From: a virus
Direction: 5' to 3' (one strand)
IMG/VR virus record: IMGVR_UViG_3300021091_000378
Location: 1 to 25,742 of that record
Length of the DNA: 25,742 bases
The notes under the pieces were generated by a model, which had not been told where the DNA came from, did no database searches, and saw only the letters and a list, made by a program, of their open reading frames with translations. A program made the translations under genes and the position numbers. Of the stretch, positions 1 through 25,180 are shown piece by piece (within the stretch, counting starts at the first letter, position 1; every line of letters begins with the position of its first letter).

Positions 1-195
1 AAAGCAAAAAAAGAAACTAAAGAAGAGAAAACACCATTTGATGAATTAGTAGCTAATATCGATGAAAGAATTACATTAGGTAAAGATTTGGATGGTAGAA
101 GTGCTAAAGCAGAATTCAAAAATGGTATTCTAACATTGGTTGTAGAAAGAAGGGAAGAATCTAAACCCAAAAAAGTTTCTATAAAAGTTGGTTAA
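1..195 (+). CDS. Small heat-shock protein (Hsp20/alpha-crystallin), C-terminal part
   Basis: The gene enters from the left edge; only its last 64 codons are present, ending at TAA 193-195. The visible part is an acidic/lysine-rich linker, then the typical end of an alpha-crystallin domain: 'SAKAEFKNGILTLVV' fits the A-x-x-x-NGVL-x-I/V-x pattern of the last beta-strands. A short tail with the I-x-I/V type motif 'KVSIKV' follows; in this family that motif docks into neighbouring subunits. Hsp20 proteins are ATP-independent holdases that keep unfolding proteins soluble in the cytoplasm, and they are known from T4-like phages of cyanobacteria. A terminator follows 25 bases after the stop, so this is the last gene of its transcript. 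The family call is good; the missing N-terminus prevents a length comparison. Confidence 0.8.
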   Translation, partial: KAKKETKEEKTPFDELVANIDERITLGKDLDGRSAKAEFKNGILTLVVERREESKPKKVSIKVG

Positions 196-218
196 TTTGG
201 TTTTTTTGTGTATATTTG
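188..218 (+). promoter_or_regulatory. Putative Bacteroidetes-type promoter (TTG, 20 bp, TATATTTG)
   Basis: TTG at 188-190 and TATATTTG at 211-218 are separated by 20 bp. This matches the Bacteroidetes -33/-7 arrangement (TTTG, 19-21 bp, TAnnTTTG). The upstream element overlaps the last codons of the Hsp20 gene. The predicted start, about 4-8 bases after the G, falls inside the left arm of the terminator hairpin, so a new transcript would lose part of that arm and should escape termination. It would drive the 58-aa gene at 271 and the membrane-protein gene at 447. Seen by eye only. Confidence 0.5.
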
Positions 219-1575: not shown

Positions 1576-1607
1576 TTTGGTTTTTTGATATTTTTTGTTT
1601 ATATTTG
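1576..1607 (+). promoter_or_regulatory. Putative Bacteroidetes-type promoter for uvdE operon
   Basis: TTTG at 1576-1579, exactly 20 bp, then TATATTTG at 1600-1607: a full match to the Bacteroidetes consensus TTTG-N19-21-TAnnTTTG. It lies in the 59-base gap before the UV-endonuclease gene and predicts transcription from about 1611-1616, leaving a leader of some 15-20 bases. The same TATATTTG octamer occurs at 211-218. This is the strongest sequence evidence here for the host phylum. Confidence 0.6.
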
Positions 1608-9315: not shown

Positions 9316-9333
9316 ATTAAATTTTCTATTTCA

Positions 9334-9342
9334 ATATTTATT
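9334..9342 (+). promoter_or_regulatory. Candidate late-promoter element (ATATTTATT, one mismatch)
   Basis: ATATTTATT differs at the last base from the ATATTTATA element found in other gaps of the structural cluster. It lies in a 41-base gap and ends 14 bases before the ATG at 9357, the same spacing as the copy before the gene at 16094. Confidence 0.35.
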
Positions 9343-9356
9343 AAAAAGTATCTATT

Positions 9357-9851
9357 ATGTCAAAATCAGATGTATTATTGGGTCTCATCAAAGAGGTTGT
9401 TAAAAATGAAGTTAAACAGCAGGTTAAAGAAGAAATCGTTAGACTTGTAAAAAGTGGTGCGATTACATTAAATAGCCCTAAACCGAAACCAGCAAAACCT
9501 TCTTTAAAAGAATCGATTGAAATTGACCCATTTGAAAAAGCTAATCAAGCTTTACAAAATAGTAGAAAGGTTACACCTAAGCAATCAAAAAAAGAGTTTA
9601 CAAAAAATCCCGTTCTAAATGAGATTTTAAATATGACTCAACCATTTACAGCGGCTGAAAGAGGCGAAGGTGGTAGTATCTTAGATGCTATTCAACCGGA
9701 AAGAAGCATGGAAGAAGATTGGGAAACATTAAGCTATTCAAATGCGAATATGCCATCGCACCAACTTCCATCTACGGATAATGCCGGTGTGGATGTTTTA
9801 GCAAAAGCATTAACAAGAGATTATTCGGAATTAGTTAAAAGATTTAAATAA
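9357..9851 (+). CDS. Hypothetical virion structural protein
   Basis: This 164-aa protein begins with an amphipathic, charged helix ('LLGLIKEVVKNEVKQQVKEEIVRLVKSG', 7-34). A Pro/Lys linker follows ('SPKPKPAKPSLKES', 40-53), then a region ending in 'NPVLNEILNMTQPFTAAERGEGG' (84-106), and a C-terminal helix 'DVLAKALTRDYSELVKRF' (145-163). Proteins of this general plan lie next to the gp25-like gene in other T4-like marine phages, where they are annotated only as structural. It overlaps the gp25-like ATG by one base (TAATG), which supports a shared role in wedge assembly. Function unknown. Confidence 0.6.
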   Translation: MSKSDVLLGLIKEVVKNEVKQQVKEEIVRLVKSGAITLNSPKPKPAKPSLKESIEIDPFEKANQALQNSRKVTPKQSKKEFTKNPVLNEILNMTQPFTAAERGEGGSILDAIQPERSMEEDWETLSYSNANMPSHQLPSTDNAGVDVLAKALTRDYSELVKRFK

Positions 9852-10285
9852 TGGCAATAGAGCTTGGTAAATATAATGTATCGGATTTAAAAGAAAACGA
9901 TTATAAAGTATTGGGTGTTTCTATAAACCAAAAATCGGATTCTAATGGTGCGTTTGCTGTAAATTTTACATCTATTAATCAAGCAAAAAGTAATTTACAA
10001 AATTTAATCTTAACCAAAAAAGGTGAAAGATTAATGCAGCCTGAATTTGGTTGTGATATTTGGAAAATAATATTTGAACCAATTATAGAAGGTGATATAG
10101 AATCTAAAATTGAAAGTTCTATATTAGATGCAGTTAATATTTGGTTGCCATATTTAAACATTGATACCATATTATTCGATTATGATGAAAACGATATTGA
10201 TACAAATAAAATACAATTAGAAATTCAATTTTCGTTAAAATCAAATAGTAATGTGGGAGCATCCGTAATAATAGACATAAAATAA
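9851..10285 (+). CDS. 25: Baseplate wedge protein, gp25-like (GPW/gp25 family)
   Basis: This 144-aa protein has the core family motif 'LQNLILTKKGERLMQPEFGCDIWKIIFEPI' at residues 49-78. It matches the pattern of T4 gp25 and P2 gpW-family wedge proteins: a helix, then T-x-x-GER-x-x-x-P-x-F-G. Gp25 links the wedge to the sheath in the baseplate inner ring and helps trigger sheath assembly. The length is close to T4 gp25 (132 aa). Although the family was once called lysozyme-like, no catalytic role is implied. It sits directly before the gp6-like gene, the conserved neighbour order in contractile-tail systems. Confidence 0.92.
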   Translation: MAIELGKYNVSDLKENDYKVLGVSINQKSDSNGAFAVNFTSINQAKSNLQNLILTKKGERLMQPEFGCDIWKIIFEPIIEGDIESKIESSILDAVNIWLPYLNIDTILFDYDENDIDTNKIQLEIQFSLKSNSNVGASVIIDIK

Positions 10286-10292
10286 TTAGATA

Positions 10293-12311
10293 ATGGCAAT
10301 AAAATCAAAAGATAAAAATTTTGGTAGTAATAGAAATATAAACTATGTTGGTAAGGATTTTGCTACATTAAAGCAAAATCTTATTGAATATACAAAAACG
10401 TATTTCCCAAATACCTATTCAGATTTCAATGAAGCATCTCCTGGTATGGTGTTTATTGAACAGGCGGCTGCTATTGGTGATGTGTTATCATTTTATCAAG
10501 ATACACAACTAAAAGAATCTATGTTAGCACACGCTTCAGAAAGAAAGAACGTTGTTGCATTGGCTCAAACAATGGGCTACAAACCAAAGATATCAACTCC
10601 AGCGGTAACCACACTTACTGTTTATCAGTTAGTTCCATCTATTGGTAGTGGTAGTGCAAATATACCAGATGAAACATTTTGTCTTAGAATAAAGGAAGGT
10701 ATGGAAGTTGCTTCTAATACGGATTCTAATATTATATTTAGAACAACTGATGTTGTAGATTTCTCTTTAAAATCCGATAGAGAAGTTGATGTGCATGAAA
10801 GAGGAGCTGATGGCGAACCAAACTTTTATCTTTTTACTAAAAAAGTAAAAGCAATATCAGCTACTCAAAAAGAGCAATCATTTGGATTTACAACATATCA
10901 GGAATATCCTAAAATCACAATAACTGATGATAATATAATTGGAATATCATCAGTAACATATCAAGATGGTACAAAATGGTATGAAGTTCCTTATTTAGCA
11001 CAAGAAAGTGTATTTGTAGAAAAAGCAAATACCGAATCAAATGGTGGAGAACTAAGTAGTTCATCATCAGTTGTACCATATATTTTAGAAGTACAAAAAG
11101 TTCCATATAGATTTGCTACAAAAGTAAATTCTGATAACACATTAGATTTACAATTTGGTAGTGGTGATACAAATATGGCTGATGAAATAATTTTACCAAA
11201 TACAAAAAATGTTGGATTAGGATTAGCAAACTCTGTAAATAGATTAAATCAAGGAATTGACCCATCTAATTTTTTAAAGACAAACACATTTGGAATTGTA
11301 CCAACATCAACATTGACTGTTAAATATTTAGTAGGAGGTGGTGTTACATCTAATATAAACTCAAACGAATTAAATAGAATTATTAGAGTAGAATACGATG
11401 AAGATTTATTAAGTTTAACATCAGACCAAATAAATCAATACAACGAAATGAAATTATCAATCGCAGTTAATAACGATGAACCTGCGGTTGGTGGTAGGGG
11501 TTCTGAATCTATTGAAGAAATTAGACAAAATGCATTGGCAATGTTCGGTTCTCAAAATAGAGCAGTAACTAAAGAAGATTATGTTGTAAGAGCATTATCT
11601 TTACCAGAAAGATATGGAAGTGTTGCAAAAGTTTATGTATCGCCGGATGGAGAGATAGATAATAATTCACCATCATCAATTCTTGCTTCTCCAAAAAACA
11701 TAGCAGAGTTTGTTGGTGTTGTAGAGAGTATGAAAGATAAATCTAAAAGTGAAATTCAAAAAGAATTAGTTAAGTATCTTTCACAAAAGAAAACGGCAAT
11801 AGCAGAAGTTAATAACCCATTTGCAATTAATATGTATGTATTAGGGTATGATAGTAATAAAAATCTAACTCAATTAAACAAAGCCGTAAAACAAAACCTT
11901 AAAACTTACTTAGGTGAATATAGGATGTTAACCGATGCAGTTAACATAATTGATGGATTTATTGTAAATATAGGAGTAGATTTTGAAGTAATATGTTATC
12001 AAAATTATAACAAAAGAGAAGTTGTTGCAAATTGCTTAACGGAATTACAATCATATTTTGAAATAGATAAATGGACATTCAATAAACCAATAAATATTTC
12101 AGAAATTGAATTAATATTAGCAAATGTAGAGGGTGTAATGAGTGTTCCATCTGTAAAGATTTATAATTTGTGTGGTGGTGATGGTAATTACTCACCAAAC
12201 AAATATAATATAGATGAAGCAAGTAAAGGTAAGATAGTTTATCCATCTTTAGACCCTTGCATATTTGAAGTTAAATATCCAAATAAAGACATAAAAGGTA
12301 GGGCATTATAA
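10293..12311 (+). CDS. 6: Baseplate wedge protein, gp6-like (baseplate J)
   Basis: This 672-aa protein has an N-terminus typical of T4 gp6: 'YVGKDFATLKQNLIEYTKTYFP' (18-39), 'DFNEASPGMVFIEQAAAIGDVLSFYQD' (44-70) and 'ERKNVVALAQTMGYKP'. The central baseplate-J signature is 'GGRGSESIEEIRQNALAMFGSQNRAVTKEDYV' (about 399-430). The C-terminal part has the alternating helix/strand pattern of the family ('VKYLSQKKTAIAEVN', 'INIGVDFEVICYQNYNK'). Gp6 dimers form the ring that ties the six wedges together and must separate during contraction. Length is very close to T4 gp6 (660 aa). It is seven bases after the gp25-like gene and overlaps the next gene by one base. Confidence 0.92.
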   Translation: MAIKSKDKNFGSNRNINYVGKDFATLKQNLIEYTKTYFPNTYSDFNEASPGMVFIEQAAAIGDVLSFYQDTQLKESMLAHASERKNVVALAQTMGYKPKISTPAVTTLTVYQLVPSIGSGSANIPDETFCLRIKEGMEVASNTDSNIIFRTTDVVDFSLKSDREVDVHERGADGEPNFYLFTKKVKAISATQKEQSFGFTTYQEYPKITITDDNIIGISSVTYQDGTKWYEVPYLAQESVFVEKANTESNGGELSSSSSVVPYILEVQKVPYRFATKVNSDNTLDLQFGSGDTNMADEIILPNTKNVGLGLANSVNRLNQGIDPSNFLKTNTFGIVPTSTLTVKYLVGGGVTSNINSNELNRIIRVEYDEDLLSLTSDQINQYNEMKLSIAVNNDEPAVGGRGSESIEEIRQNALAMFGSQNRAVTKEDYVVRALSLPERYGSVAKVYVSPDGEIDNNSPSSILASPKNIAEFVGVVESMKDKSKSEIQKELVKYLSQKKTAIAEVNNPFAINMYVLGYDSNKNLTQLNKAVKQNLKTYLGEYRMLTDAVNIIDGFIVNIGVDFEVICYQNYNKREVVANCLTELQSYFEIDKWTFNKPINISEIELILANVEGVMSVPSVKIYNLCGGDGNYSPNKYNIDEASKGKIVYPSLDPCIFEVKYPNKDIKGRAL

Positions 12312-13417
12312 TGATTAGATTTTTTACAGCATCTTTTGATGCAAGTGTATATCTTCAACAACCTGACCAAAATACAGGCAGAGATGAGGTATTAGAGGTT
12401 GGTAAACTATATTATGGTGATACTAAAGATATTGCTAGAACTCTTATTAAGTTTCCAATAAGTGAAATTATATCTCGTTTAAATGAAGTACATATGTATG
12501 TAACCGCTAGTAATTGGAAAGCATACTTAAATTTAAAATCAGTACAAGCAGAAGAAATACCATTAGAATATACAATACACGCCAATGCAGTTTCTCAAAG
12601 CTGGTCTATGGGAACTGGTACTAAATTTGATAATATAATATCAGATGGTGTAAGTTGGAAGTATAGAAATGGTTTTGATAGTTGGCAAGATAATACGATA
12701 GCAGGTACGGCTCAATATAGTATAGGAACAACAGGTTCTGCAAACGCTGAAGGTGGTACTTGGTACACCGCATCACAGGCATCACAATCATTCAATTACG
12801 AAGAAGCTGATATTAGAATGGATGTTACGGAAATAGTAAAACTTTGGAATACCGGTTCATTACCAAACCACGGATTTATAGTACATCATAGTTTAGAAAA
12901 TGAATCAGATACCTTAGATTACGGCATATTAAAATTCTTTTCAAAAGAAACTAATACAATATACGAACCTAAATTAGAAATTAATTGGTTTGATTTTTAC
13001 TATGCTACATCATTAGCGCCAATAACAGGTTCAGCTAATGATGGATATAAATTGGTTCTTCTAAATTTACAAAAAGAATATAAACAAAGTAGTAGAACAA
13101 AAATAAGATTGAAGGGTAGAGATATGTATCCATTAAAATCTTTTAATAGTACATTTGAATATGAACAAAATAAAGCATTACCAATTGCATCGTTTTATCA
13201 AATAGAAGATTATAAAACAGGAGATGTAATTTGTCCATTTAATAGTTTTACTCAAATAAGCGCAGATAATACTTCAAATTATTTTTGGTTATATTTTGAT
13301 AATTATCCAACAAATCGAACTTATAAAATTAAATTTAGAATAGATGATATAGATGATGAGGGTAGAACTTGGTCAACAATAATTGATGAAAAATACTTAT
13401 TTGAAATTATAGATTAA
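12311..13417 (+). CDS. Baseplate/tail protein with DNRLRE-like sandwich domain
   Basis: In this 368-aa protein the first ~225 residues resemble the DNRLRE/carbohydrate-binding sandwich seen in many extracellular proteins. 'FFTASFDASVYLQQPDQNTGRDEVLEVG' opens it (repeated 'D..V' strand), then 'ARTLIKFPISEI', 'LHANAVSQSWSMGTGTKFD' type strands (actual 'IHANAVSQSWSMGTGT' near 91-106), 'WQDN', 'MDVTEIVKLW' (about 175-184) and 'NHGFIVHHS'. The last ~140 residues are a second beta-rich part. The domain is usually linked to cell-surface or sugar binding, so an adhesion role at the baseplate rim is plausible, but a purely structural role fits too. TAATG overlaps on both sides place it in one translational unit with gp6-like and the coiled-coil protein. 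Confidence 0.65.
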   Translation: MIRFFTASFDASVYLQQPDQNTGRDEVLEVGKLYYGDTKDIARTLIKFPISEIISRLNEVHMYVTASNWKAYLNLKSVQAEEIPLEYTIHANAVSQSWSMGTGTKFDNIISDGVSWKYRNGFDSWQDNTIAGTAQYSIGTTGSANAEGGTWYTASQASQSFNYEEADIRMDVTEIVKLWNTGSLPNHGFIVHHSLENESDTLDYGILKFFSKETNTIYEPKLEINWFDFYYATSLAPITGSANDGYKLVLLNLQKEYKQSSRTKIRLKGRDMYPLKSFNSTFEYEQNKALPIASFYQIEDYKTGDVICPFNSFTQISADNTSNYFWLYFDNYPTNRTYKIKFRIDDIDDEGRTWSTIIDEKYLFEIID

Positions 13418-14568
13418 TGAACGGATTAACTCCATTAGAAACAATAGCACAAAAGCTAGAAGAAAAAAGAAAATCGGATTTAGAAACCATATTAAAGGTA
13501 TCCGGTTCAGCAGCTATTGCCAGAAATGAATATGGAATTACTGTTGTTGAAGAAAATAATATAGCATCATCTTTAGCTTTTAAAACATTGGTAAAGCCTA
13601 AATACGATGAGGTTGAAATTAAAAAAGCTATCAACGTTGAAGTTAAAGAACTTAGACCCGATATCCCAATACCAAATTTAGATTTAGTACCAAAACCATT
13701 ATATGATGATGAGGTTAATACTAATACTAATTTAAGAAAAGAAAATGAAGATTTAACTAAGAAGGTAGAAGATTTAACTCAAAAGGTAGCTGATTTAGAA
13801 ACTAAATTAAAAAGTGAAATAAATAATAGATTATCAATAGAGCAGACAAATGATGCTTTAGTTAATCAATTAAATACACTAACTCAAACAGTAGATGATT
13901 TTGCAATACAAATTCAAACATCATTACAAAAATCAGTAGAGGAAGGAATTCTTAGAGCATCACTACAATCACAAAATACTGGATTTAAAGCTCAGATACA
14001 AGCATTAATTAAACAAATTGACTCATTAAATTCTATTGTAGAAGGTTTACAATCACAATTAGGCGCAGTACAAAATCAACAGGCAATAGTTCAAGGAACA
14101 CAAGCACAAGCGGCAGCAGCAGGTGCAGATGTTGTAAATGATGTTGCTATTGTCAAATTAGAACCAGAGGCAGATGCGAATGCACCAAAAATATTTGCTA
14201 GATTCAAATCAGGAGGGGGTTCACAATGGAAAAACGGAAAATCATTAAGTATAACAAATAATGATAAAAAAGATATTACAGTACAACTAACAAAAACAAA
14301 TCCATCTGGCGCACCTGATTTTTATAATATACCACAATCTTCATTTACAATGACTCCTGGAGAAAATAAATCAATAGAGTTTACATTAAATGAAAATGCA
14401 GTTAGTGGGGTAGATTCTAAAAAGAAAGGTGGATTATTTGGCGGTCATACGAGTTCAAAAGATTACAAAGGTGGTTCATTAAAAGTAAATATCACTCGTG
14501 CAGATGGAACATCTAAAGAAAAAACATATGATGCCGGTTTTGGTAAATACCATCCTAACTCTTATTAA
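13417..14568 (+). CDS. Coiled-coil tail protein with C-terminal Ig-like domain
   Basis: This 383-aa protein has three visible parts. A globular N-terminus (1-100, ending in the Pro-rich 'LRPDIPIPNLDLVPKPLYDD') comes first. A long coiled coil follows at about 105-220, with heptads such as 'LRKENEDLTKKVEDLTQKV' and 'LQSQLGAVQNQQ', then an Ala/Gln-rich stretch ('GTQAQAAAAGADV'). The C-terminal domain (about 250-383) has beta-sandwich features: 'KIFARFKSGGGSQWKNG', 'KSLSITNNDKKDITVQL', 'SFTMTPGENKSIEFTLNE'. The plan is like phage whiskers or tail-fibre shafts: a trimeric rod with a small head. No specific family is recognised. It overlaps the preceding gene by one base. Confidence 0.65.
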   Translation: MNGLTPLETIAQKLEEKRKSDLETILKVSGSAAIARNEYGITVVEENNIASSLAFKTLVKPKYDEVEIKKAINVEVKELRPDIPIPNLDLVPKPLYDDEVNTNTNLRKENEDLTKKVEDLTQKVADLETKLKSEINNRLSIEQTNDALVNQLNTLTQTVDDFAIQIQTSLQKSVEEGILRASLQSQNTGFKAQIQALIKQIDSLNSIVEGLQSQLGAVQNQQAIVQGTQAQAAAAGADVVNDVAIVKLEPEADANAPKIFARFKSGGGSQWKNGKSLSITNNDKKDITVQLTKTNPSGAPDFYNIPQSSFTMTPGENKSIEFTLNENAVSGVDSKKKGGLFGGHTSSKDYKGGSLKVNITRADGTSKEKTYDAGFGKYHPNSY

Positions 14569-14578
14569 TAAATAAATT

Positions 14579-16069
14579 ATGAGTATTACAAAATATACAA
14601 ACTTTGATTCAATCGACATCAATAAATCCAATCAAGGTGAGTTTTTGATGAAGGATGACAAATTTATTGTCACAAAGAATGAAGTTGAAGAAACAGATTT
14701 TGGTGATTGTAAGTATGATGTTATGGAAGTATCGGTTTATGATATAAACAATAATTTACTTCCACATAAATCAGGTAAAAATGTTGCTTATATAAAAACA
14801 GGTGATATTAAAAATTATCTATATAATCTTACTAACAAAGGTGGTCAGCCGGAATTAGCTATTGATATTAAAAAGCTATTAAACGATTTGGGATTTTCAA
14901 ATGGTATTCTAAAAGTTATTATTAATTTTGTAAGAAATAGAGTTGGAACTGATAATGAACTTACGAGAGTTTGGATTCAACAAATATCCCCATCAAGAGA
15001 GGAAATAAGAGTACTGCCATTAAAAACGAGCGATACAAACGTAAACAAAAAAACCGAATCAGAATTCACAAATATAAATAATCTTAGTAAAGATTTTAAA
15101 TATTATAGAAAAAATATATTAACAGCTTTAGATTCTTTTGAAGTAACTTATTTAGATTCAATTACCGATGCTATGACAGCTCGATTTGGTAAAGATTTTG
15201 AATCAGTTCTTAGAAAAGATTTTGGATTATCCGATTTTAATGGTTTCAAAAAAAGAATATTTTCTGATTTTAAAGATAGTGTAACATATTGGGTAACTAA
15301 CAAATATTATAACGTAGCTGAATCCAATTTTGGAAAGCCATCCAATATTAGATTTGAAGATTGTGAACAATATGATTTCAGTAGATTATTGGGTGAAATA
15401 TATTCGATACTAAGAAATTGTATAGATTATCACACTAAAACTTTAAAAAGACGAGATATTTCTATTAAATCCCTTCCAAAAGAATTTGAAATTACAGAAC
15501 TTAAAAAAGAAGTTAGAGATTTGGTTGGTAATATAAAGGTTGATGAAAATAGAGTAAGAAACGTTTATAATCCAAAGCAAGTAGAAATTAAATCAGTTGG
15601 TACAAAAATAATAGATGTTAAAAAAGAAGTAATAAAAATATTGCCAGACCCTATTAAAGAAGAACCTATATTTGATTTACCACCAAACCCACCTGAAAAA
15701 GAAGAACCAATTAAGATTGAGCCAATAAAAATAGAGCCTATTAAAATAATACCACCAGACCCAATTATTAAAATAGACCCTATAAAAGAAGAACCAATAA
15801 AAGAAGAACCAATAAAAATAGACCCTATTAAAATAATACCACCAGACCCAATTATTAAAATAGACCCCATTAAAGAAGAACCAATAAAAGAGGACCCGAT
15901 TAAAATTCCAATTGTAGATTTACCACCATTCACCGGCGGAGGTGGTGGCGTAGTTGGTGGTGGCGGAAGCGGCGGAGGTGGCGGAACTGTAATACGTGAA
16001 CGTGGAACGGGGTTGGGAAGAGAAGTGGTTTATGATGATGATGTTAGGCAAAGAGAAAATATACAATAA
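14579..16069 (+). CDS. Structural protein with repetitive Pro/Ile/Lys and poly-Gly tail
   Basis: This 496-aa protein has a globular part (about 1-345) that starts 'MSITKYTNFDSIDINKSNQGEF'. It is beta-rich to about residue 150 and then helical, with 'YYRKNILTALDSFEVTYLDS' and 'RFGKDFESVLRKDFGLSDF'. From about 350 the sequence becomes low-complexity: EPIK/DPIK units and PPDP steps to about 447, including an 87-bp tandem duplication. A Gly-rich run (about 453-469, broken by VV and S) and a charged end ('RERGTGLGREVVYDDDVRQ') follow. The repeat region likely forms an extended, stiff linker, and the glycines a flexible joint. No family is recognised; the position between wedge genes and the 1759-aa gene suggests a baseplate or fibre-network role. 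Confidence 0.65.
   Translation: MSITKYTNFDSIDINKSNQGEFLMKDDKFIVTKNEVEETDFGDCKYDVMEVSVYDINNNLLPHKSGKNVAYIKTGDIKNYLYNLTNKGGQPELAIDIKKLLNDLGFSNGILKVIINFVRNRVGTDNELTRVWIQQISPSREEIRVLPLKTSDTNVNKKTESEFTNINNLSKDFKYYRKNILTALDSFEVTYLDSITDAMTARFGKDFESVLRKDFGLSDFNGFKKRIFSDFKDSVTYWVTNKYYNVAESNFGKPSNIRFEDCEQYDFSRLLGEIYSILRNCIDYHTKTLKRRDISIKSLPKEFEITELKKEVRDLVGNIKVDENRVRNVYNPKQVEIKSVGTKIIDVKKEVIKILPDPIKEEPIFDLPPNPPEKEEPIKIEPIKIEPIKIIPPDPIIKIDPIKEEPIKEEPIKIDPIKIIPPDPIIKIDPIKEEPIKEDPIKIPIVDLPPFTGGGGGVVGGGGSGGGGGTVIRERGTGLGREVVYDDDVRQRENIQ
15737..15910 (+). repeat. 87-bp tandem duplication in coding sequence
   Basis: Two adjacent copies of an 87-bp (29-codon) unit, 15737-15823 and 15824-15910, encode units starting 'PIKIIPPDPIIKIDPIKEEP'. 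The copies differ at only a few bases (for example CCTATAAAA against CCCATTAAA, and EEP against EDP near the end). Each unit is itself built of shorter 4-6 residue EPIK/DPIK steps that extend upstream to about 15650. The near identity points to recent duplication. Confidence 0.85.
15935..15985 (+). repeat. Poly-glycine coding tract, locally GC-rich
   Basis: Seventeen codons, mostly GGN, read GGGGGVVGGGGSGGGGG. The tract forms a sharp GC-rich island in otherwise AT-rich DNA. Protein-level role: probably a flexible hinge between the extended repeat and the C-terminal tail of the structural protein at 14579. Confidence 0.8.
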
Positions 16070-16070
16070 A

Positions 16071-16079
16071 ATATTTATA
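16071..16079 (+). promoter_or_regulatory. Candidate late-promoter element ATATTTATA
   Basis: An exact ATATTTATA starts one base after the stop at 16067-16069 and ends 14 bases before the GTG at 16094. The wider stretch, ATATTTATAGTAAATAA, closely resembles the copy at 24520 (ATATTTATACTAAATAA). Confidence 0.45.
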
Positions 16080-16093
16080 GTAAATAAAGAAGA

Positions 16094-19000
16094 GTGGTTA
16101 AAGCATTAGAAAAATTATTTGGGGGAGAGCCTACTTTAAATGCCTATAATGGTGATGGAGAATATTCTGCTTTTACAAATATAAAGGAGGATGTCGATGG
16201 AAGAGGAAGGGGAGGATATGAACCTCCCGTACCACCAAACCCAACATATTTACCAGGTGATATAAAAAGCAATATAAACAGTCAAATTGTAAAAATGAAT
16301 CTCTTCACTTCCCAAGGTGAAGTAGTTGAATTTTTAGAGAACGGAACGCCAATAGCATTTGGTAATAGTTGCGTTTATACATTTGCAACTATTGAATTTT
16401 CCGGTATTAAAAAATACGAAATCGTAAAAGAAGGAAGTATAGCTGAACAATATTATGAGGTTGGTGTCACAAAAAGGTATCCAATTCCAATAGAAATAGA
16501 TAGACCATTGGATTATTTGGATATAGATTATTTAGACCCACTATATCTAAAATTAGGATATTCGTCTAGAGGAAATTCATTTGGATTTGGTACAAACAGA
16601 AGAAGTATTTTTGGATTAGGAAATTCCTATGATGAATATGATAATAATTTACAAAATATTTATAATCCAAAATTCAAATATAATTTTAATCCAAGCACAA
16701 CCGCCATTGATTATAAATACGCAGAAGTTCTAAATATTTATGAATATAGATTACAAGACGATGGTAGTTATCGTTTAGATAATACACGAAACTTAGATTC
16801 TGATTTTGGTTCTATTAGTTTAAGCTTTTCAACTAAAACTAAGAAAAAACGAGATATCGGCGGAGGTGGTAGTACTATTAGTGAAACAATAATAGTAGAC
16901 CAAATATTAGAATATGAAATTGTATTTTCTTCTAATTTAAAAAATGAATTAGGTAATAATGTATTTTTAGATTATTCTATTTTCTCACAAGATGGATTAA
17001 TATTAGATTCAGACTCTATTTCATTAGAAGATGGAAATAGTATCAAAAAAATATCTTTAAAACAGTTAAATGGTAGTAGAGTTGATTTTCAATTAAAATA
17101 TAATAATCTACCAACAAACTATCTTTTAACAAACATATATCAAACAGCTAGCCCAACTGCTTTAGTAGGAATAAACACACCCGATTATAGTAAATGGAAT
17201 AAGCAACCATCTGCTTTTAGTGTATCTGGAGAATTATTAAAAGCTGGTATATCAGTTGTAACTCTTTTTGAAAAAGAAATAGCAGTTGAAAGACCTTTTG
17301 TTGATATTGATGATGTTTACAAAAAAATATCCGTTCAGGTAAAAGAATCAGATGATGATAAAACTATATCGATTCCATTTAAAACAAAAAATGCAGATGT
17401 TGTATTACTTTATGTTAATGGAAGTACCGATGTAATATCAATACCTACATCAAATGAATATATAACACTATCCTTTAAAAAAGATTTTGGTGAAGTTTAT
17501 GGTAACAAAACAATATTACTATTAGCTAAAAGCAAAAGATATGGTACAGGTGATTCTGCTACCGCATTAATTACATTCACAGCGGTAAATGATTTCCCAT
17601 CTATTACGGAAATAAACTTTCCACAAAACATAGATATACCATCGTTTTCAGATTTTAACATAGAATATAAAGTAGAATATACATCTTTTTCAACGACAAC
17701 AATTGATGTAGATTTATTATTAAAAGATAAAAGCAGAGTAAAGTTATTTAAAAACCTTAATCCAAATGGAGAGGTTTCAATAAATGTAAAAACTCTTAGA
17801 GAAAACTATCCAAACTGGGTAGGTAGTGATAATGTAACATTAATTTTCAAACCATTCAATAGGGGTGGCGCTGAAGAACTTATTGGTAATGAATATGAGG
17901 TAGTTACATCATTAGGATTACCTGGTTTACAAATAGATGAAACAATATTTTCAACTGCTATCTTTGAAGTATTTGCAGAAAAGCTAAGTGTAGTTGAACC
18001 AGAAAAAGAAAGTAAATATTTATCACACTTATCTAATTTTGGTAACGATGAACAAATATTAATTTCGTCTTGGGAAAATGATGATTGGACTTTATCAGAT
18101 AAAGAAACCGATGAAATAGGAAATACAAAGGTAACGAAAAAAGTAGATTCTTTAATTCTTAAATTATACACACCCTTAAATCCAAACATTTTAGTAAACT
18201 CTACTTTATGGATTACAAAATTAATGGCAAATCCATTAATTGAAACTGTAGTTCTTACGGAGCAAGATGAAGTTAAGTGTCCACCAATCAAAGGACCTAA
18301 TTTTAATATTGATGTTGATTTTGTAAGTGGACAATCTACTGCTTACGAATCTTTAGATAATCTTATTTTGAGCGGTTCTGCAACATCAACTCAATTAGTT
18401 TCTACATATTTAACTTCATCCTTATTTAGTACCGATGAGTTAAATGTTGAATACGTTAGTGGTTCTGATTATATATGGAATAATTTCGTACACTTTAGTT
18501 CAGCAAAAGAAAGAGTTTTAAATTTTGATTACAAAGTAAAATTAATAGAAGCATATGAAACATTGATAGATAGCTCATCAAATGGAGCTGGTTCCATTGC
18601 AGAACAAAATGAAATACAAAGACAACAATTTAAAAAAGATTTATTAATCGCTGGATTTGATGGGTTTGAAAAATTCCTATATGAATCATCTTCAATGGGA
18701 TGGCCTTATAATGGAACTGAAAGAAGATTAAGTACATCAAATGAAGTACAAAATTGGCTTGATAATGTTATAGATTTAGCAGAAGATTTTGATATAGAAA
18801 ACCAAAACTACGTTTTAAATAATATACCAGAATACATTGTAAATAATGAAAATAACGACCAATTTATATTATTCTTCACAATGATTGGTCAGCACTTTGA
18901 TAATATATACTTTCATACAAAAGCAATTGAAAAGAGTAGAGGATTAGGATATAAATCAAAAGATGGTATATCTGATAAATTATTATTTGATATTCTTAAA

Positions 19001-21373
19001 TCATTTAATTGGGATGCAAAAAATCTTGCAGCAGATTCTAAACTTTGGGAATATGCGTTTGGTATAGATGTAGATGGTAATGTCAAAAACGAAAATCCTG
19101 CTAAACAAAGAACATATGAAGTTTGGAGAAGGATTGTAAATAATTTACCTTACTTACTAAAACACAAAGGAACTCGTAGAGGTATTTACGCACTATTGAG
19201 TTGCTATGGTATTCCTTCATCAAATCTTTCTATATTAGAATTCGGTGGACCGGAAGTAGGTGAAGTTACAAAATCTAAATTAGTATTTGATAACCTTACT
19301 TATGGTTTGCGTATGAATAATGGTTCATACATTTCCATTGATTGGTGGAATACAAATCAAAATAGAAAACCCGATACGATAGAATTTTTTGTAAAACCAT
19401 CTGAAGCAGGAGAATATAATATTGTATCTGGAAGTGGTTGGGGAGTACATGTAAGTGGTTCGGCTAATCAAAACTATGGTAGAGTAATATTAAACTATTC
19501 GGGCTCAAACGCTATATCATCATCACTATTACCGATATTTAATGGTAGATTTTTTGGCGTAGAAGTTAGTAGAGAAGTTAGTTCAAGTTATCATAATTTT
19601 GAATTAAATTTAAGACAAGCAGACAAAGATAGAACCATATTTGAAGATTCAAAAACAATAAGTGTTTTAGCAACTAATTCGAATTGGAATAATGGATATG
19701 AATTAAAATTTGGTAATGATTTTACGGGTTCAGTTGATGAGTTTCGTTTATGGTCTACACCATTAAACAAAGAAAGGTTCTATGAGCACGTTTCTTTTCC
19801 TGAAATGATTAATGGTAATCATATATCGGCATCTACTGATGATTTACACTTTAGACTAGATTTTGAATATCCAAAAGATTTATCAGTATTTCAAACTTTA
19901 CCAAACGTAGATACAAATATTTACTTCGGAGAAGGTTCTGATAGAACTAATTATGAAAGTGGTAGTTCTACTGATTTATATTCACTAAACCCATCAGCTT
20001 CATTTTCAGCAAGTGTTAGTGGATTTAATCCAGCTGCAACATATCCATATCAATTTGAAGCAATAGATAGAAGCGTTGTGTTAGAAGTACCTGATATGGG
20101 GTCATCTCGTTATTCAACTAATAAAGTGAGATTTGAAGAACAAACACTGGTTTCAGATTTATCATGTAAGAGCAGAGCAACTAAAAAAGCATTTGACCAA
20201 GCACCTACCGATTCGAATAGAGTTGGTTTATTCTTCTCTCCTACAAAAGAGTTAAATATTGATATTGCTAAATCATTTGGTGGAATTAATTTAGATAACT
20301 ACATTGGTGACCCATCAGATAGATATAAAAGCAGTTATAAGAGCTTAGATAGATTGAGAAACTATTATTTCAAAAGATTTGATGATAGAGATATTTACGC
20401 ATACATTAACTTAATCAAACTATATGAGAAATCAATGTTTGAAGATATTAAGAAGATGTTGCCAGCCAGAGTTAAAGCAACTACCGGTTTATTAATTGAA
20501 CCACATATTTTAGAAAGAAGTAAACATCAATATATAAAACCAAATGGTGAATATAATGAATATGAATCTATAATAGAATATGGTGATGAACTACTTTCCG
20601 CAGAAAATATTCAAAAAGAGGTTACATTAGATACTACAACTGAATATTTTTTGAATGGTGAAAATAATCAATATTTAGCATTAATAGAATCAGCATCAGC
20701 AGAAATTATAGAGGGCGAAAATTATCAGTATGATTCATTAATCAATACAACAACTTTTACTTTAGCAGAGGGTAATTCTTATCAACACACAGCAAGTATA
20801 GATGCTAAGTTTGAAGAACCAACTATATTGACAGAAATTGATTTAATAGATGCAAATACTATTGTTGGACAAAATGATTTCGAAACTTTAGGATTTGGTA
20901 TTTTTGCTCAAAGTGGTTCTGCTATTAGAACTTACTACGATAAAGATGGTAATCTTAAAAAAGAAAGAATTAGAATACAAGTTGTAAAAGAAAAGAAAAC
21001 AAGAGAAGTTCTTAAATACAAAGTTTTAAATGCAAATGGTAGAGGAGATGAAAGAGGTGGATTTGAATTAACATCATCCGTATATTATGAATCATATGTA
21101 AACGTTCAACCATTTTCTGGCTCAAATCAATTTACATCTTCAAATGTAAATATAGAAGTGATACCAGTAGATGGATACTTACCAACACATTACAGAAACA
21201 CAACTGATTTGACTAGAGGATTACAAAATTCATTTTTTAAGGGTTGTAAAAACACCAGAGCCACTACATTAGATGGTACACCGCCTGTTGAAACATTCTT
21301 AACGAATCCAAACACATTAAGAGTTAACAAAGCAGGTAGAGATGCAAGTGAACCTATATTAGAAGTGGAATAA
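16094..21373 (+). CDS. Giant tail/baseplate protein with LamG-like domain, 1759 aa
   Basis: The start is GTG 16094; an in-frame TAA at 16085 and no ATG until about residue 67 support it. Parts in order: Gly/Pro-rich N-terminus (18-55); beta-rich region with repeated Tyr/Asn-rich strands (to about 380); Ig-like strands (about 400-640); helical, wedge-like region (about 800-1050) with 'YEVWRRIVNNLPYLLKHKGT' near 1007-1026, similar to tail proteins that connect wedge to fibre (P2 gpI or T4 gp7 type); LamG/ConA-like jellyroll (about 1085-1235, 'IEFFVKPSEAGEYNIVSGSG', 'GSVDEFRLWSTPLNKERFYEH'); a 'DIKKMLPARVKATTGLLIEP' segment near 1450-1475; a 19-residue repeat (about 1485-1578); and a basic C-terminal domain. 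The LamG part is a good candidate for receptor contact. It is the largest gene in the window. A precise T4 counterpart cannot be named. Confidence 0.75.
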   Translation: MVKALEKLFGGEPTLNAYNGDGEYSAFTNIKEDVDGRGRGGYEPPVPPNPTYLPGDIKSNINSQIVKMNLFTSQGEVVEFLENGTPIAFGNSCVYTFATIEFSGIKKYEIVKEGSIAEQYYEVGVTKRYPIPIEIDRPLDYLDIDYLDPLYLKLGYSSRGNSFGFGTNRRSIFGLGNSYDEYDNNLQNIYNPKFKYNFNPSTTAIDYKYAEVLNIYEYRLQDDGSYRLDNTRNLDSDFGSISLSFSTKTKKKRDIGGGGSTISETIIVDQILEYEIVFSSNLKNELGNNVFLDYSIFSQDGLILDSDSISLEDGNSIKKISLKQLNGSRVDFQLKYNNLPTNYLLTNIYQTASPTALVGINTPDYSKWNKQPSAFSVSGELLKAGISVVTLFEKEIAVERPFVDIDDVYKKISVQVKESDDDKTISIPFKTKNADVVLLYVNGSTDVISIPTSNEYITLSFKKDFGEVYGNKTILLLAKSKRYGTGDSATALITFTAVNDFPSITEINFPQNIDIPSFSDFNIEYKVEYTSFSTTTIDVDLLLKDKSRVKLFKNLNPNGEVSINVKTLRENYPNWVGSDNVTLIFKPFNRGGAEELIGNEYEVVTSLGLPGLQIDETIFSTAIFEVFAEKLSVVEPEKESKYLSHLSNFGNDEQILISSWENDDWTLSDKETDEIGNTKVTKKVDSLILKLYTPLNPNILVNSTLWITKLMANPLIETVVLTEQDEVKCPPIKGPNFNIDVDFVSGQSTAYESLDNLILSGSATSTQLVSTYLTSSLFSTDELNVEYVSGSDYIWNNFVHFSSAKERVLNFDYKVKLIEAYETLIDSSSNGAGSIAEQNEIQRQQFKKDLLIAGFDGFEKFLYESSSMGWPYNGTERRLSTSNEVQNWLDNVIDLAEDFDIENQNYVLNNIPEYIVNNENNDQFILFFTMIGQHFDNIYFHTKAIEKSRGLGYKSKDGISDKLLFDILKSFNWDAKNLAADSKLWEYAFGIDVDGNVKNENPAKQRTYEVWRRIVNNLPYLLKHKGTRRGIYALLSCYGIPSSNLSILEFGGPEVGEVTKSKLVFDNLTYGLRMNNGSYISIDWWNTNQNRKPDTIEFFVKPSEAGEYNIVSGSGWGVHVSGSANQNYGRVILNYSGSNAISSSLLPIFNGRFFGVEVSREVSSSYHNFELNLRQADKDRTIFEDSKTISVLATNSNWNNGYELKFGNDFTGSVDEFRLWSTPLNKERFYEHVSFPEMINGNHISASTDDLHFRLDFEYPKDLSVFQTLPNVDTNIYFGEGSDRTNYESGSSTDLYSLNPSASFSASVSGFNPAATYPYQFEAIDRSVVLEVPDMGSSRYSTNKVRFEEQTLVSDLSCKSRATKKAFDQAPTDSNRVGLFFSPTKELNIDIAKSFGGINLDNYIGDPSDRYKSSYKSLDRLRNYYFKRFDDRDIYAYINLIKLYEKSMFEDIKKMLPARVKATTGLLIEPHILERSKHQYIKPNGEYNEYESIIEYGDELLSAENIQKEVTLDTTTEYFLNGENNQYLALIESASAEIIEGENYQYDSLINTTTFTLAEGNSYQHTASIDAKFEEPTILTEIDLIDANTIVGQNDFETLGFGIFAQSGSAIRTYYDKDGNLKKERIRIQVVKEKKTREVLKYKVLNANGRGDERGGFELTSSVYYESYVNVQPFSGSNQFTSSNVNIEVIPVDGYLPTHYRNTTDLTRGLQNSFFKGCKNTRATTLDGTPPVETFLTNPNTLRVNKAGRDASEPILEVE
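20546..20827 (+). repeat. Five degenerate 19-residue protein repeats
   Basis: Inside the 1759-aa protein, units begin at 20546 (GEYNEYESII...), 20600 (AENIQKEVTL...), 20657 (GENNQYLALI...), 20714 (GENYQYDSLI...) and 20771 (GNSYQHTASI...). The last four are spaced exactly 57 bases; the first is 54. The pattern is about (G/A)-(E/N)-(N/S)-x-Q-(Y/H), then alternating hydrophobic residues, which suggests a short beta-solenoid or stacked hairpins. DNA identity between units is low, so the repeat is old. Confidence 0.7.
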
Positions 21374-21385
21374 CGGAATTTTAAA

Positions 21386-21400
21386 ATATTTATATTTATA
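21386..21400 (+). promoter_or_regulatory. Two overlapping ATATTTATA elements
   Basis: Exact ATATTTATA occurs at 21386-21394 and again at 21392-21400 in the 48-base gap between the 1759-aa gene and the next structural gene; the second copy ends 21 bases before the ATG at 21422. This is the only tandem copy seen. It may serve a highly expressed virion protein. Confidence 0.45.
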
Positions 21401-21421
21401 AACAAAGATAATTAAAAAACT

Positions 21422-22045
21422 ATGGGATATTTAAGTAATAATGAATTGACAGTTGATGCAATTCTTACTAAAAAAGGTAGAGAAAAATTAGCAGCAGGTT
21501 TGGGTTTAAATATTACCCAATTTGCTTTAGCAGACGATGAGATTGATTACTCCTTATATGAGCCAGCACACCCGTTGGGTTCGGCATATTATGATGCAGC
21601 AATCAAAAATATGCCTGTATTAGAAGCATCTCCTGATGAGACTCAGGTGATGAAATATAAAATCGTTACCCTTCCAAAGAATACTACAAGAATACCGGTT
21701 GTAGAATTTGGTGTTCCTAACGTAGCAGTTAACCAAAGAAGTGGTGAGGTTTCATTATCTCCAACTACATCTCCTGCCGGAAATAGAAGATTAGGATATA
21801 CAATTGTATTAGCAAATAAAAACGCTGGTGATATTGTAGGTGAAGGTGTAACTGCAGATGTTGGTACTGTACCTATTTTTATTGGTGATGATGTATCAGC
21901 AACAGCAGCAGTTGCAAAGGGATTAACTTTTAAATTTATTCCAAACCCATCTTTAACTTCGACTATCAAAACAACTATAACTGTTTATGGTAACGAAACG
22001 GGTGGTTCACAAACAATACCAGTAACAGTAACATACGTTCAATAA
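21422..22045 (+). CDS. Virion structural protein, 207 aa
   Basis: The N-terminus 'MGYLSNNELTVDAILTKKGREKLAAG' leads into 'ITQFALADDEIDYSLYEPAHPLGSAYYDAAIKNMPVLEA' (31-69). This block recurs in uncharacterised structural proteins of marine myoviruses (recognised from memory, no search). The rest (about 75-207) is beta-rich and ends with an Ig-like strand pattern ('KGLTFKFIPNP', 'TIKTTITVYGNETGGSQTIPVTVTYV'). There is no signal peptide. Double ATATTTATA elements lie upstream. The gap to the next gene is only eight bases, so the two are probably expressed together. It is likely a tail or baseplate decoration protein; the role is not known. Confidence 0.65.
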   Translation: MGYLSNNELTVDAILTKKGREKLAAGLGLNITQFALADDEIDYSLYEPAHPLGSAYYDAAIKNMPVLEASPDETQVMKYKIVTLPKNTTRIPVVEFGVPNVAVNQRSGEVSLSPTTSPAGNRRLGYTIVLANKNAGDIVGEGVTADVGTVPIFIGDDVSATAAVAKGLTFKFIPNPSLTSTIKTTITVYGNETGGSQTIPVTVTYVQ

Positions 22046-22053
22046 TATAAACT

Positions 22054-23268
22054 ATGGCAGTAATTAGAGATAATAGAGGAGCCCTTTTAGCAAGTAATTT
22101 ATCACAATACTTAGCAGGTGCAGCTAACACCGCAGGAACTCCTATCGATACAAACGAATTAGTAAACATTGTAAACCAATTCTTAGGACAAGGTGAACAA
22201 ATTAGTGCCGATGTAACTACCGTAACAAATGGTATTTACAAAAAGTTTGGCGCTATTGATAAAGTAACTAATAGAACCGAAGTTGTAACTTCAGGTATTT
22301 GGAGTGGTGATGTGGGTTCTTTAGAAACATTTTTCTCTTCATCAGAACAAAGCTCATCAGTAAGTGGTAAATATTATTTGGATGTATATAATGAAGTAAC
22401 ATCATCTGATGCAGCAGAAGTGCAGTTTTCAATAGCATATGCACATATTAGTGGTGGTGGTGCACCAACACTATCCCAAACGGATACTTCTACTGTACCA
22501 ACTAAAGCCATCTATTCTCAATTGAGAAACTTATTGTTAGATGGCGGTGATACTTACTTTAGTGTTTATAATGGTTCTACCGAAGGTGGATATGATTTAG
22601 AGCATTTTTACGCATTAAACATTAATAGAGCTAGATACAAAGAAAAATTAGACCCAGGTAACATACAAATCGACCTATCGGGTTCTAATGGTCTAGTAAC
22701 CCTAATAGATGATTCTGGCCAAACTGAAACCGTTGGTTCAAGTGGTAGAGTATTTAATATGGTAAGTGGTGCATTGAATATTGGTACTAACAACGAAGGT
22801 ACAATTAGTTCGGTAACAGCATCAAATGGACAAGGATGGGGATTATTTTATCCAGATGCAGGTATTTTCATTTTAAATCCATCGGCTATTAGTGCATCAG
22901 TTGGAACAACATTTGTTTCATCATCAGCGGCTAATACATACAGTAACGTATCTAATATGCACAATTTATTTGATGCATTGAAAAAAGGAGCAGATTTCCA
23001 AGCTCGTAGAACTGAAAACGTTTCTACATCTCATTACTTTGTGAGAGCCAATAATAGAGAATTTAATTTTTCAAATAATCCAACGTTTGTGACTGGTTCG
23101 GTTGGAGCATTTAAAAATGTAACATTTGAAAGAGACCCTAAAGTATATATTACTACTGTAGGTCTTTATGATGATGCAAACGAATTATTAGCAGTAGCAA
23201 AAGTATCTAAACCAATTGAAAAATCATTTGATAAAGAAGTTGCAATTAAAGTTAAATTAGATTTTTAA
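22054..23268 (+). CDS. Virion structural protein sharing C-terminal module with next gene
   Basis: The N-terminus of this 404-aa protein is helical and Ala/Gly-rich ('RDNRGALLASNLSQYLAGAANTAG'). Then come a beta-rich region rich in Ser, Thr and Gly, a segment 'HFYALNINRARYKEKLDPGNIQIDLSG' (about 188-214) and a C-terminal block 'DPKVYITTVGLYDDANELLAVAKVSKPIEKSFDKEVAIKVKLDF' (about 361-404). The last 40 or so residues are clearly related to the C-terminus of the next protein. A repeated conserved C-terminus on neighbouring structural proteins suggests a common docking site on the baseplate or a shared assembly tag. A terminator follows the stop codon. No defined family is recognised. Confidence 0.7.
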   Translation: MAVIRDNRGALLASNLSQYLAGAANTAGTPIDTNELVNIVNQFLGQGEQISADVTTVTNGIYKKFGAIDKVTNRTEVVTSGIWSGDVGSLETFFSSSEQSSSVSGKYYLDVYNEVTSSDAAEVQFSIAYAHISGGGAPTLSQTDTSTVPTKAIYSQLRNLLLDGGDTYFSVYNGSTEGGYDLEHFYALNINRARYKEKLDPGNIQIDLSGSNGLVTLIDDSGQTETVGSSGRVFNMVSGALNIGTNNEGTISSVTASNGQGWGLFYPDAGIFILNPSAISASVGTTFVSSSAANTYSNVSNMHNLFDALKKGADFQARRTENVSTSHYFVRANNREFNFSNNPTFVTGSVGAFKNVTFERDPKVYITTVGLYDDANELLAVAKVSKPIEKSFDKEVAIKVKLDF

Positions 23269-23295
23269 TCAGAGAGTAACTTATAACGGACTACG

Positions 23296-23323
23296 AAACC
23301 CAACCCTAAAAAGTTGGGTTTTT
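23296..23323 (+). terminator. Rho-independent terminator after structural gene
   Basis: AAACCCAAC (23296-23304) pairs with GTTGGGTTT (23313-23321), a 9-bp stem with the 8-base loop CCTAAAAA, followed by T (TTTTT at 23319-23323). It lies 27 bases after the stop at 23268 and ahead of the element at 23334, so the next gene needs its own promoter or read-through. Confidence 0.85.
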
Positions 23324-23333
23324 AGTTAAAAAG

Positions 23334-23342
23334 ATATTTATA
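23334..23342 (+). promoter_or_regulatory. Candidate late-promoter element ATATTTATA
   Basis: This exact ATATTTATA lies just after the terminator at 23296-23323. A promoter is expected here because the upstream transcript ends. The element finishes only six bases before the ATG at 23349, so the transcript would have almost no leader. Confidence 0.5.
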
Positions 23343-23348
23343 TGTGAT

Positions 23349-24515
23349 ATGTTAAAAAGAATACCAAAATCAGATATTAGTATTAGACCTTTCAAAGCTT
23401 ACAAAGAATGGAGTTATGAAAGTGGTTCTACTCAAATTACCGTATTAGAAGCTGATTTAACTTCTACGAATTTATCTGGCTTATATCCAAAAAATTCCAT
23501 ACACGGACAATTAAGAGCACAATTTTATAATGGAAATGAAGATAACCCATTTTTAAGATTTGGTGCAAAAAGTAGCAATTACGAAACATCTACTATTGCA
23601 AAAGAAAGATATTTTGAAGATTATGCAAAAGTAATCAGTATTCCACAAATAGCAGTAGGTGAAGGAATAAAAAAGTTTTCAGTTACATTAGTAGATTCAT
23701 CTACAACTTATGTTGATGATGGTTATGGAAATATACAAGACCCAAGAGATAGTATAATTTTATCTTTAATAGATAATCAAACAAACGAAGTTAATTTTAC
23801 CGATTATATTAATAACGTATATAGTGCATCATCACCATATCCAGCAACTGTATTTGTAGATATTGAAAATGAGGAAATAAGAATTGTATATAGTGGAGAT
23901 GAATACTCTCAACAATTAGTATCGTATGATGTAGAATCTGGCATATTGGTTGCAGATGATTTACCATTTTTACCTGAAGCAGCGCAAGGTATAAAAATAG
24001 GTAACGTATTCTATACACAGGGTTTAATAGTATTAACTAGAGATGCGGCAAATAGATTAAATAGTGGTTGGACTTTAGATTATAAATCAACCGAAACTAT
24101 TTATGAAAATGAATTTTTATTAATAGTTCAACCGGATGAATTCAATGTTTCACAAAACCCATCAGCAGTAGAAGTTGTTGGCAAAGAAACATCTACATAC
24201 GTTGATTCCGATGGTGTAGTTAGAAAAGTTACAACAAACCCTGGCGTAAAATATATTCGTAAAAAATCCGTATTAGAAAATGGGGATATTTTAGATTATA
24301 GATTTAGCGGAACTACGGGAAGTGCGAAAGCCGGATTTGAACATTGGGAAGCAAGTAGTTCGGTAGATTCAACAGGTTCATTCTTAGCACCATTTATTAC
24401 AACGATAGGGTTATACGATGATAATTGTGATTTAGTTGCAGTAGCAAAATTACCACAACCAATTAAATCAGACCCGGAATTACCTGTAAACTTTATTGTT
24501 CGTTTTGATACTTAA
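23349..24515 (+). CDS. Virion structural protein with shared C-terminal module
   Basis: This 388-aa protein has the N-terminus 'MLKRIPKSDISIRPFKAYKEW', a beta-rich body with many Ser/Thr/Asp ('KKFSVTLVDSSTTYVDDGYG', 'IILSLIDNQTNEVNFTDYI'), and a C-terminal end 'ITTIGLYDDNCDLVAVAKLP' (about 349-368) leading to 'FIVRFDT'. That end is the same module as in the preceding protein. The body does not resemble the previous protein, so only the module is shared. It is the first gene after the terminator at 23296, so it probably has its own promoter. Another in-frame ATG lies nowhere near the N-terminus; the start at 23349 is supported by the basic conserved-looking beginning. Its function in the particle is unknown. 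Confidence 0.7.
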   Translation: MLKRIPKSDISIRPFKAYKEWSYESGSTQITVLEADLTSTNLSGLYPKNSIHGQLRAQFYNGNEDNPFLRFGAKSSNYETSTIAKERYFEDYAKVISIPQIAVGEGIKKFSVTLVDSSTTYVDDGYGNIQDPRDSIILSLIDNQTNEVNFTDYINNVYSASSPYPATVFVDIENEEIRIVYSGDEYSQQLVSYDVESGILVADDLPFLPEAAQGIKIGNVFYTQGLIVLTRDAANRLNSGWTLDYKSTETIYENEFLLIVQPDEFNVSQNPSAVEVVGKETSTYVDSDGVVRKVTTNPGVKYIRKKSVLENGDILDYRFSGTTGSAKAGFEHWEASSSVDSTGSFLAPFITTIGLYDDNCDLVAVAKLPQPIKSDPELPVNFIVRFDT

Positions 24516-24519
24516 TCTT

Positions 24520-24528
24520 ATATTTATA
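24520..24528 (+). promoter_or_regulatory. Candidate late-promoter element ATATTTATA
   Basis: An exact ATATTTATA ends 16 bases before the ATG at 24545. An upstream TTG (24496-24498) is 20 bases before TATATTTA, so this copy could also be read as a one-mismatch Bacteroidetes promoter. The downstream sequence CTAAATAA matches the copy at 16071 except for one base. Confidence 0.45.
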
Positions 24529-24760: not shown

Positions 24761-25177
24761 ATGGCTAAGAAAAAAGTTACAAAAAAGACCAACTCTAAAT
24801 GGGTTGCTAGGAAATATGGTTTTAAATCCGGTCTTGAAGAAAATATTTCAAATCAAATCAAAGGTAAAGGAATTAAGGTTGAATATGAAACCGAACAGGT
24901 ATCTTATACTATACCTGCTTCTGAACATACTTACTATCCTGATTTTAAGTTACCAAATGGAATAAGAGTAGAAACTAAAGGTAGATTTGTCCTTGCAGAT
25001 AGGAAAAAACACCTATTGGTAAAGGAACAAAATTCTAATTTAGATATTCGTTTCGTATTTTCCAACTCAAAAAACAAAATTAGTAAAAAATCCAAAACCA
25101 CCTATGGAGATTGGTGTGAAAAGCATGGATTTAAATATGCTGATAAGGAAATTCCAAATAGTTGGTTTGAAGAATAA
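24761..25177 (+). CDS. Holliday junction resolvase, T7 endonuclease I type
   Basis: This 138-aa protein resembles T7 gp3 (149 aa) across its length: 'KSGLEENISNQIKGKGIKVEYE', 'YTIPASEHTYYPDFKLPNG', 'VETKGRF', 'DRKKHLLVKEQNSNLDIRFVFS', 'TTYGDWCEKHGFKYADKEIP'. The PD-(D/E)XK catalytic residues are present as E26, D61, E71 and K73, in line with E20, D55, E65 and K67 of T7. The enzyme cuts branched DNA, resolving recombination and replication junctions before packaging. A Lys-rich N-terminus ('AKKKVTKKTNSK') is added. The T4 counterpart (gp49, endonuclease VII) is unrelated, so this is a module swap. It lies three bases before the polymerase gene, with which it probably forms a DNA-metabolism unit. 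Confidence 0.93.
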   Translation: MAKKKVTKKTNSKWVARKYGFKSGLEENISNQIKGKGIKVEYETEQVSYTIPASEHTYYPDFKLPNGIRVETKGRFVLADRKKHLLVKEQNSNLDIRFVFSNSKNKISKKSKTTYGDWCEKHGFKYADKEIPNSWFEE

Positions 25178-25180
25178 GTT

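Follow-up and report, generated by a model that had tools for sequence, protein, structure and literature searches.

A probable late promoter octamer of T4-related myoviruses that differs from the T4 octamer at two central bases

The DNA considered here, a fragment of 25,742 bases from an IMG/VR virus record (called the window below), raises an unusual question. An AT-rich element recurs in the gaps of its structural gene cluster, not far from a gene for a sigma factor, and the reverse complement of this element contains the late promoter octamer of phage T4, TATAAATA, facing away from the genes. What is the element, and why should the T4 octamer appear on the wrong strand? The analysis described below argues that the core of the element, TATTTATA, is very probably the -10-like element of late promoters, read by a phage sigma factor, in a large clade of T4-related myoviruses. 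It would then define a late promoter class that works like that of T4 but lacks its defining octamer.

Within the window, exact copies of the usual form, ATATTTATA, occur on the + strand at 16071, 16656, 21386, 21392, 23334 and 24520, and the - strand has none. The copy at 9334 that an earlier note had described as having one mismatch is indeed present, as ATATTTATT (Table 1). When the distance from the end of the motif to the start codon was measured again, values of 14, 14, 27/21, 6 and 16 nt were obtained for the sites at 9334, 16071, 21386/21392, 23334 and 24520, and the sites at 16071 and 24520 share the longer match ATATTTATA(G/C)TAAATAA, as had been reported. The placement in gaps also held up, with five exact copies in 439 intergenic bases and a sole other exact copy inside a gene, at 16656. 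A first-order Markov null for the gaps gives a mean of 0.08 copies, and 0 of 20,000 simulations reached five, a count in which two copies (21386 and 21392) overlap. The total for the whole window is unremarkable (6 copies against 3.1 expected, with 9 of 100 shuffles reaching 6). Because that total is ordinary and the gap count is far above chance, the signal of the motif is its location. TATAAATA showed no enrichment in the window gaps, with 0 intergenic copies on the + strand. ATATTTATA is its own mirror image, and a control in which this word is read backwards is therefore void. Adjacency of terminators to the element is a weak tendency only (11/93 versus 15/265 gaps).

Table 1. Features of the window that bear on the putative late promoters
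Feature	Position	Strand	Remarks
Host-type early promoter (predicted), TTG-N20-TATATTTG	188..218	+	before gene 271; TATATTTG at 211
Host-type early promoter (predicted), TTG-N20-TATATTTG	1577..1607	+	before gene 1631 (endonuclease); TATATTTG at 1600
Sigma factor gene, 229 aa	4682..5371	+	sigma-2 domain ~10-115; predicted sigma-4-like helix-turn-helix ~161-224
Putative late promoter element, variant ATATTTATT	9334..9342	+	14 nt before gene 9357, first of baseplate block
Putative late promoter element ATATTTATA	16071..16079	+	14 nt before GTG of gene 16094
Chance copy within a gene, outside the system	16656..16664	+	absent in 17/17 orthologues
Two overlapping putative late promoter elements ATATTTATATTTATA	21386..21400	+	before gene 21422
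Stretch with a probable intrinsic terminator (AACCCAACCC TAAAAA GTTGGGTT TTT)	23276..23320	+	upstream of 23334 element; hairpin scan
Putative late promoter element	23334..23342	+	6 nt before ATG of gene 23349, near-leaderless; same spacing in G001
Putative late promoter element	24520..24528	+	before gene 24545; conserved in G001 and G003

Because the window is a fragment, the genome-wide test was made in relatives. The baseplate protein encoded at 10293-12311 has 490 relatives in IMG/VR and the sigma gene at 4682 has at least 581, and both match the same two named phages, Flavobacterium phage Immuto and Microcystis phage Mel-JY01. These two were read whole, along with the large relatives G001 (245 kb) and G003 (209 kb) and the more distant G010, G011 and G013, whose sigma factors are about 45-47% identical to the product of gene 4682. 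Genes in the relatives were called by a custom longest-ORF script, and since individual start calls may be wrong, the argument rests on counts and not on single cases. Mel-JY01 is filed under Microcystis, yet many of its promoters have the Bacteroidetes form TTG-N20-TAnnTTTG, and its true host may be a co-cultured member of the Bacteroidetes. A metagenomic phage, LR756508 (484 kb), has a sigma factor that is 47% identical, and there is no obvious TATTTATA in its baseplate gaps within the 12.6 kb that were read.

The core TATTTAT is conserved upstream of the orthologues of gene 9357 in 68 of 68 relatives, so that the one-mismatch site at 9334 is real, and upstream of those of gene 16094 in 17 of 17, 14 of them at the identical offset of -23. 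For gene 21422 the count is 23 of 23, including Immuto, where the protein is 43% identical, and including one doubtful alignment, that of Mel-JY01, in which the copy lies farther upstream; all three tallies come from related sequences and are not independent draws. The in-gene copy at 16656 is missing from all 17 orthologues, among them the 14 that hold the upstream copy at -23. On the coding strand of the relatives, TATTTATA has a density of 1.2-3.5 per kb in gaps versus 0.03-0.1 in genes, and the corresponding enrichment of TATAAATA is far below this. In coding-strand upstream regions of G001, G003, Immuto and Mel-JY01, ATATTTAT and TATTTATA rank with the most over-represented 8-mers, beside early-promoter words, and TATAAATA is near or below expectation in the same kind of analysis of four relatives. 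As a positive control, the identical script puts TATAAATA first in the late region of T4; it gave no comparable signal in crAss001, phiST and FCL-2, which are Bacteroidetes phages outside the clade. The comparison of gap motifs with chance that the earlier note had proposed, carried out in the window and in the relatives, thus came out as enrichment in the gaps before late genes. The spelling is usually ATATTTATA, with CTATTTATA in part of Immuto. Among 123 non-redundant sites there was no -35-like conservation; the biases seen upstream, at -15/-14 and -21, are weak. Purines are weakly favoured 4-5 nt past the element, which fits a start site.

The orientation of the element provides a way to approach the puzzle of the T4 octamer. 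Reverse-complementing TATTTATA gives TATAAATA exactly, and this identity is what recommends the idea that function lies with the T4 octamer opposite the coding strand, with promoters that fire backwards or with a sigma factor that reads the template strand; in the jumbo phage AR9, an nvRNAP is reported to read its promoter on the template strand (PMC9209446). A test of strand bias had been called for, and in the relatives the orientation of the element follows transcription: 145 of 165 sites in co-directional gaps face the genes (122:19 in + gaps and 1:23 in - gaps; Fisher p 1e-15). Sites that face the wrong way include five in G010 and six in Immuto, and several of them overlap a forward copy, e.g. 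CTATTTATAAATA. Furthermore, G001-G007 have a lone opposite-strand gene that encodes 59-61 aa, and in 7 of 7 cases a copy of TATTTATA lies 37-60 nt upstream of this gene and points the same way as it does. The turning of the element with the gene, together with the bias toward the genes, makes backward firing very unlikely; template-strand reading is compatible with the sequences. The identity itself has a simple origin, since TAT..ATA is palindromic and two central substitutions, from TAT-AA-ATA to TAT-TT-ATA, are all that is needed to make the octamer resemble its reverse complement. The opposite-orientation octamer noticed earlier is therefore real as a matter of reverse complementarity, but it is better described as a same-direction variant of two bases than as a reversed promoter, and a functional role for the other strand in either form seems quite improbable. 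The opposite-strand gene (MKYAMLQIKKETHELLK...; 82131-82310 in G001) is itself conserved, follows a probable SbcC-like gene, and has a leader rich in AAAGAAAACTAA repeats.

A second alternative is that the element is a variant of the -7 element of the host primary sigma factor, so that no phage sigma would be needed. The promoters of Bacteroidetes hosts follow the grammar TTTG / TAnnTTTG at -33/-7 (PMC6847099, PMC9723704), and promoters of this kind, with the TTG-N20 spacing, serve the early-type genes of these phages. There is some likeness: both elements are AT-rich and lie at the same position, TATTTATA agrees with TAnnTTTG at T-12, A-11, T-8 and T-6, and the early promoters of Immuto, TTG-N20-TAT[AC]TTTAG, which are in the same genome and similar to the eye, indicate that the -7 element can drift. 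However, the late sites have no TTG at -33 and no final G and are different at -7, so that the host combination of TTTG at -33 with TAnnTTTG at -7 is not found at TATTTATA sites. A TTG at exactly N20 upstream accompanies 41 of 52 TAnnTTTG sites and 24 of 28 TAT[AC]TTTAG sites of Immuto, versus 2 of 103 TATTTATA sites. The Immuto early promoters, unlike the late sites, are bipartite, and they are absent from the late gaps: the broader pattern TA..TTT[AG]G occurs in 0 of 25 late gaps versus 25 of 66 others, and TATTTATA in 16 of 25 late gaps versus 7 of 66 elsewhere.

The genes behind the two kinds of element differ accordingly in character. Those behind TATTTATA include terminase, portal, sheath, tube and tape measure genes in Immuto and head-tail adaptor, tail fibre, sheath and tube genes in G001, and the downstream genes with a named function are mostly virion genes. 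The genes behind early elements in G001 include those for an endonuclease, an exonuclease and GroEL, with one exception, a portal gene that has a host-type promoter. Not every virion operon carries the element; the capsid gene of Immuto has no exact copy. A further comparison comes from phages with other early promoters. In G011, half of the genes have Shine-Dalgarno-like sites and the early promoters are of a TTGAC type with a spacing of about 18 bp, which implies a host that follows other rules. Nevertheless G010, G011 and G013 retain an unchanged TATTTATA in gaps other than those with TTGAC promoters; the tally for G011 is 20 gaps with the late element only, 19 with TTGAC only, and 1 with both. 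Because G011 has the same sigma family and the same late element under different host rules, the hosts of the clade probably belong to more than one phylum. This persistence of TATTTATA, together with the N20 counts, makes it highly unlikely that the element is a variant of the host -7 element. The suggestion that the late promoters have their own form and differ from the TATATTTG promoters is thus supported by gap enrichment, by orientation, by the missing TTG at -33 and by co-occurrence with the sigma gene.

A third possibility is that the element acts in translation or as part of the mRNA 5' leader. Its closeness to start codons would fit, as would the A-rich leaders that Flavobacterium uses in place of Shine-Dalgarno sequences (PMC6847099), but a leader element should not be so rare where upstream regions overlap genes (the genic and gap densities given above), nor should its distance to the start range from 1 to 52 nt. 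In G011 the element lies upstream of separate Shine-Dalgarno sites, and gaps that contain both it and the other promoter class are very rare, so that this explanation is extremely improbable. AT-rich coincidence, for which only the whole-window count speaks, can be practically dismissed in view of the gap-restricted simulations, the conservation across many relatives and the lack of comparable enrichment of the reverse complement.

If TATTTATA is a late promoter element, the product of gene 4682 is the candidate for its reader. Pfam and PHROG gave no match to this protein itself, and the top PDB matches of its AF2 model (pLDDT 81.6) are sigma factors. T4 gp55 (7d7c_F) is among the best of these, with Z 10.1 over 126 aligned residues and an rmsd of 6.3 A, tied with other sigma factors. 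The conserved, predicted C-terminal helix-turn-helix, searched alone, gave sigma region 4 as its best matches, which are weak (Z 5-6). Sequence kinship with gp55 is also weak: hhalign gave E values of 2.7e-4 and 0.019 (the T4 gp55 query is 100% identical to X01804), and the gp55 family model phrog_234 has the orthologue as its sole match in Immuto, at a weak E of 0.008, and no match in G001, G003 and Mel-JY01. The description of the protein as a gp55-like sigma thus stands for the sigma-2 fold, and needs amendment for the additional predicted C-terminal sigma-4-like domain and the weak sequence similarity. The element co-occurs with this phage sigma, and phages that have a sigma about 45% identical but other early promoters and ribosome-binding sites keep TATTTATA. 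A proposed covariation of specificity, between H95 of gp55 (which reads A-9) and F89 here, was dropped when alignments by eye showed that the gp55s of pf16, HTVC008M and Syn33 also have F.

The comparison with T4 shows both likeness and difference. In the T4 structure, gp55 contacts A-12, A-9 and A-8 and no -35 is used (PMC7892883). The T4 late promoter, served by gp55 with gp33 and the sliding clamp gp45, is a single -10-like octamer before late virion genes, and the TATTTATA sites likewise consist of one -10-like element with no conserved -35, paired with a phage sigma that has the sigma-2 homology domain of the gp55 family. TATTTATA keeps the A at -12 and at -8 and has T,T at -10/-9 where T4 has A,A; on the coding strand before late genes it stands in place of TATAAATA. 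The sigma differs from gp55 in its predicted sigma-4-like domain and, as judged by eye, has no recognisable clamp-binding tail of the gp55 type. No match to phrog_223 (gp45) was found in the relatives searched, for which phrog_223 and phrog_168 replaced PF02916, a model that matched nothing even in controls. The clamp loader gp44 was found in G001, G003 and Mel-JY01 and not in Immuto. Shortly upstream of the clamp loader, G001 encodes a 237-aa protein (8882-9592) with relatives in G003 and Mel-JY01, and this may be a very divergent sliding clamp.

The simplest way to model late transcription in these phages begins with the early genes, for which the host RNA polymerase and its primary sigma would use the TTTG-N20-TAnnTTTG promoters. 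From gene 4682 the phage would then make its own divergent sigma, which would join the host core and read TATTTATA as melted non-template DNA, without a conserved -35, and the transcript would begin a few bases past the element and run with the genes. What can be read directly from the genomes is the element with its conservation, orientation and class specificity, the missing -35 and the co-occurrence with the sigma. Its action as a transcription start signal, and its recognition by the gene 4682 sigma, are what we infer from these features, and the gene content downstream suggests that it acts late. A broader proposal can be offered only tentatively, as somewhat more doubtful than not: that this is a distinct late-transcription system, in which a sigma-2 plus sigma-4-like phage sigma reads a fixed octamer in phages whose hosts follow unrelated rules for promoters and ribosome binding, perhaps without coupling to a sliding clamp, which would make the late promoter code a property of the phage lineage, not of the host.

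A known late promoter would allow late operons to be annotated from sequence in the hundreds of uncultured contigs that carry this sigma. It would also mean that nature offers a gp55-like sigma with a second specificity (AA in T4 to TT at -10/-9), so that the choice of bases by a minimal sigma becomes testable, and the isolated phage Immuto offers a practical system with a laboratory host. No paper that names TATTTATA as a phage promoter was found among the open-access papers searched, which is no proof of novelty, and the presumed source paper for the Baltic Flavobacterium phages says nothing of promoters and does not use the name immuto.

Some further features of these genomes deserve mention. 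In the window, a gene for a Nol-like carbamoyltransferase (5376-7076) separates the sigma gene from the baseplate block, and at the other end gene 24545 is followed, in 24761-25742, by an endonuclease I gene (Phage_endo_I) at 24761 and then by a DNA polymerase III alpha-like gene that runs off the window. In G010 and G013 the late element often ends only 3-7 nt before the ATG, which suggests that their late messages are leaderless, if the element is indeed a -10.
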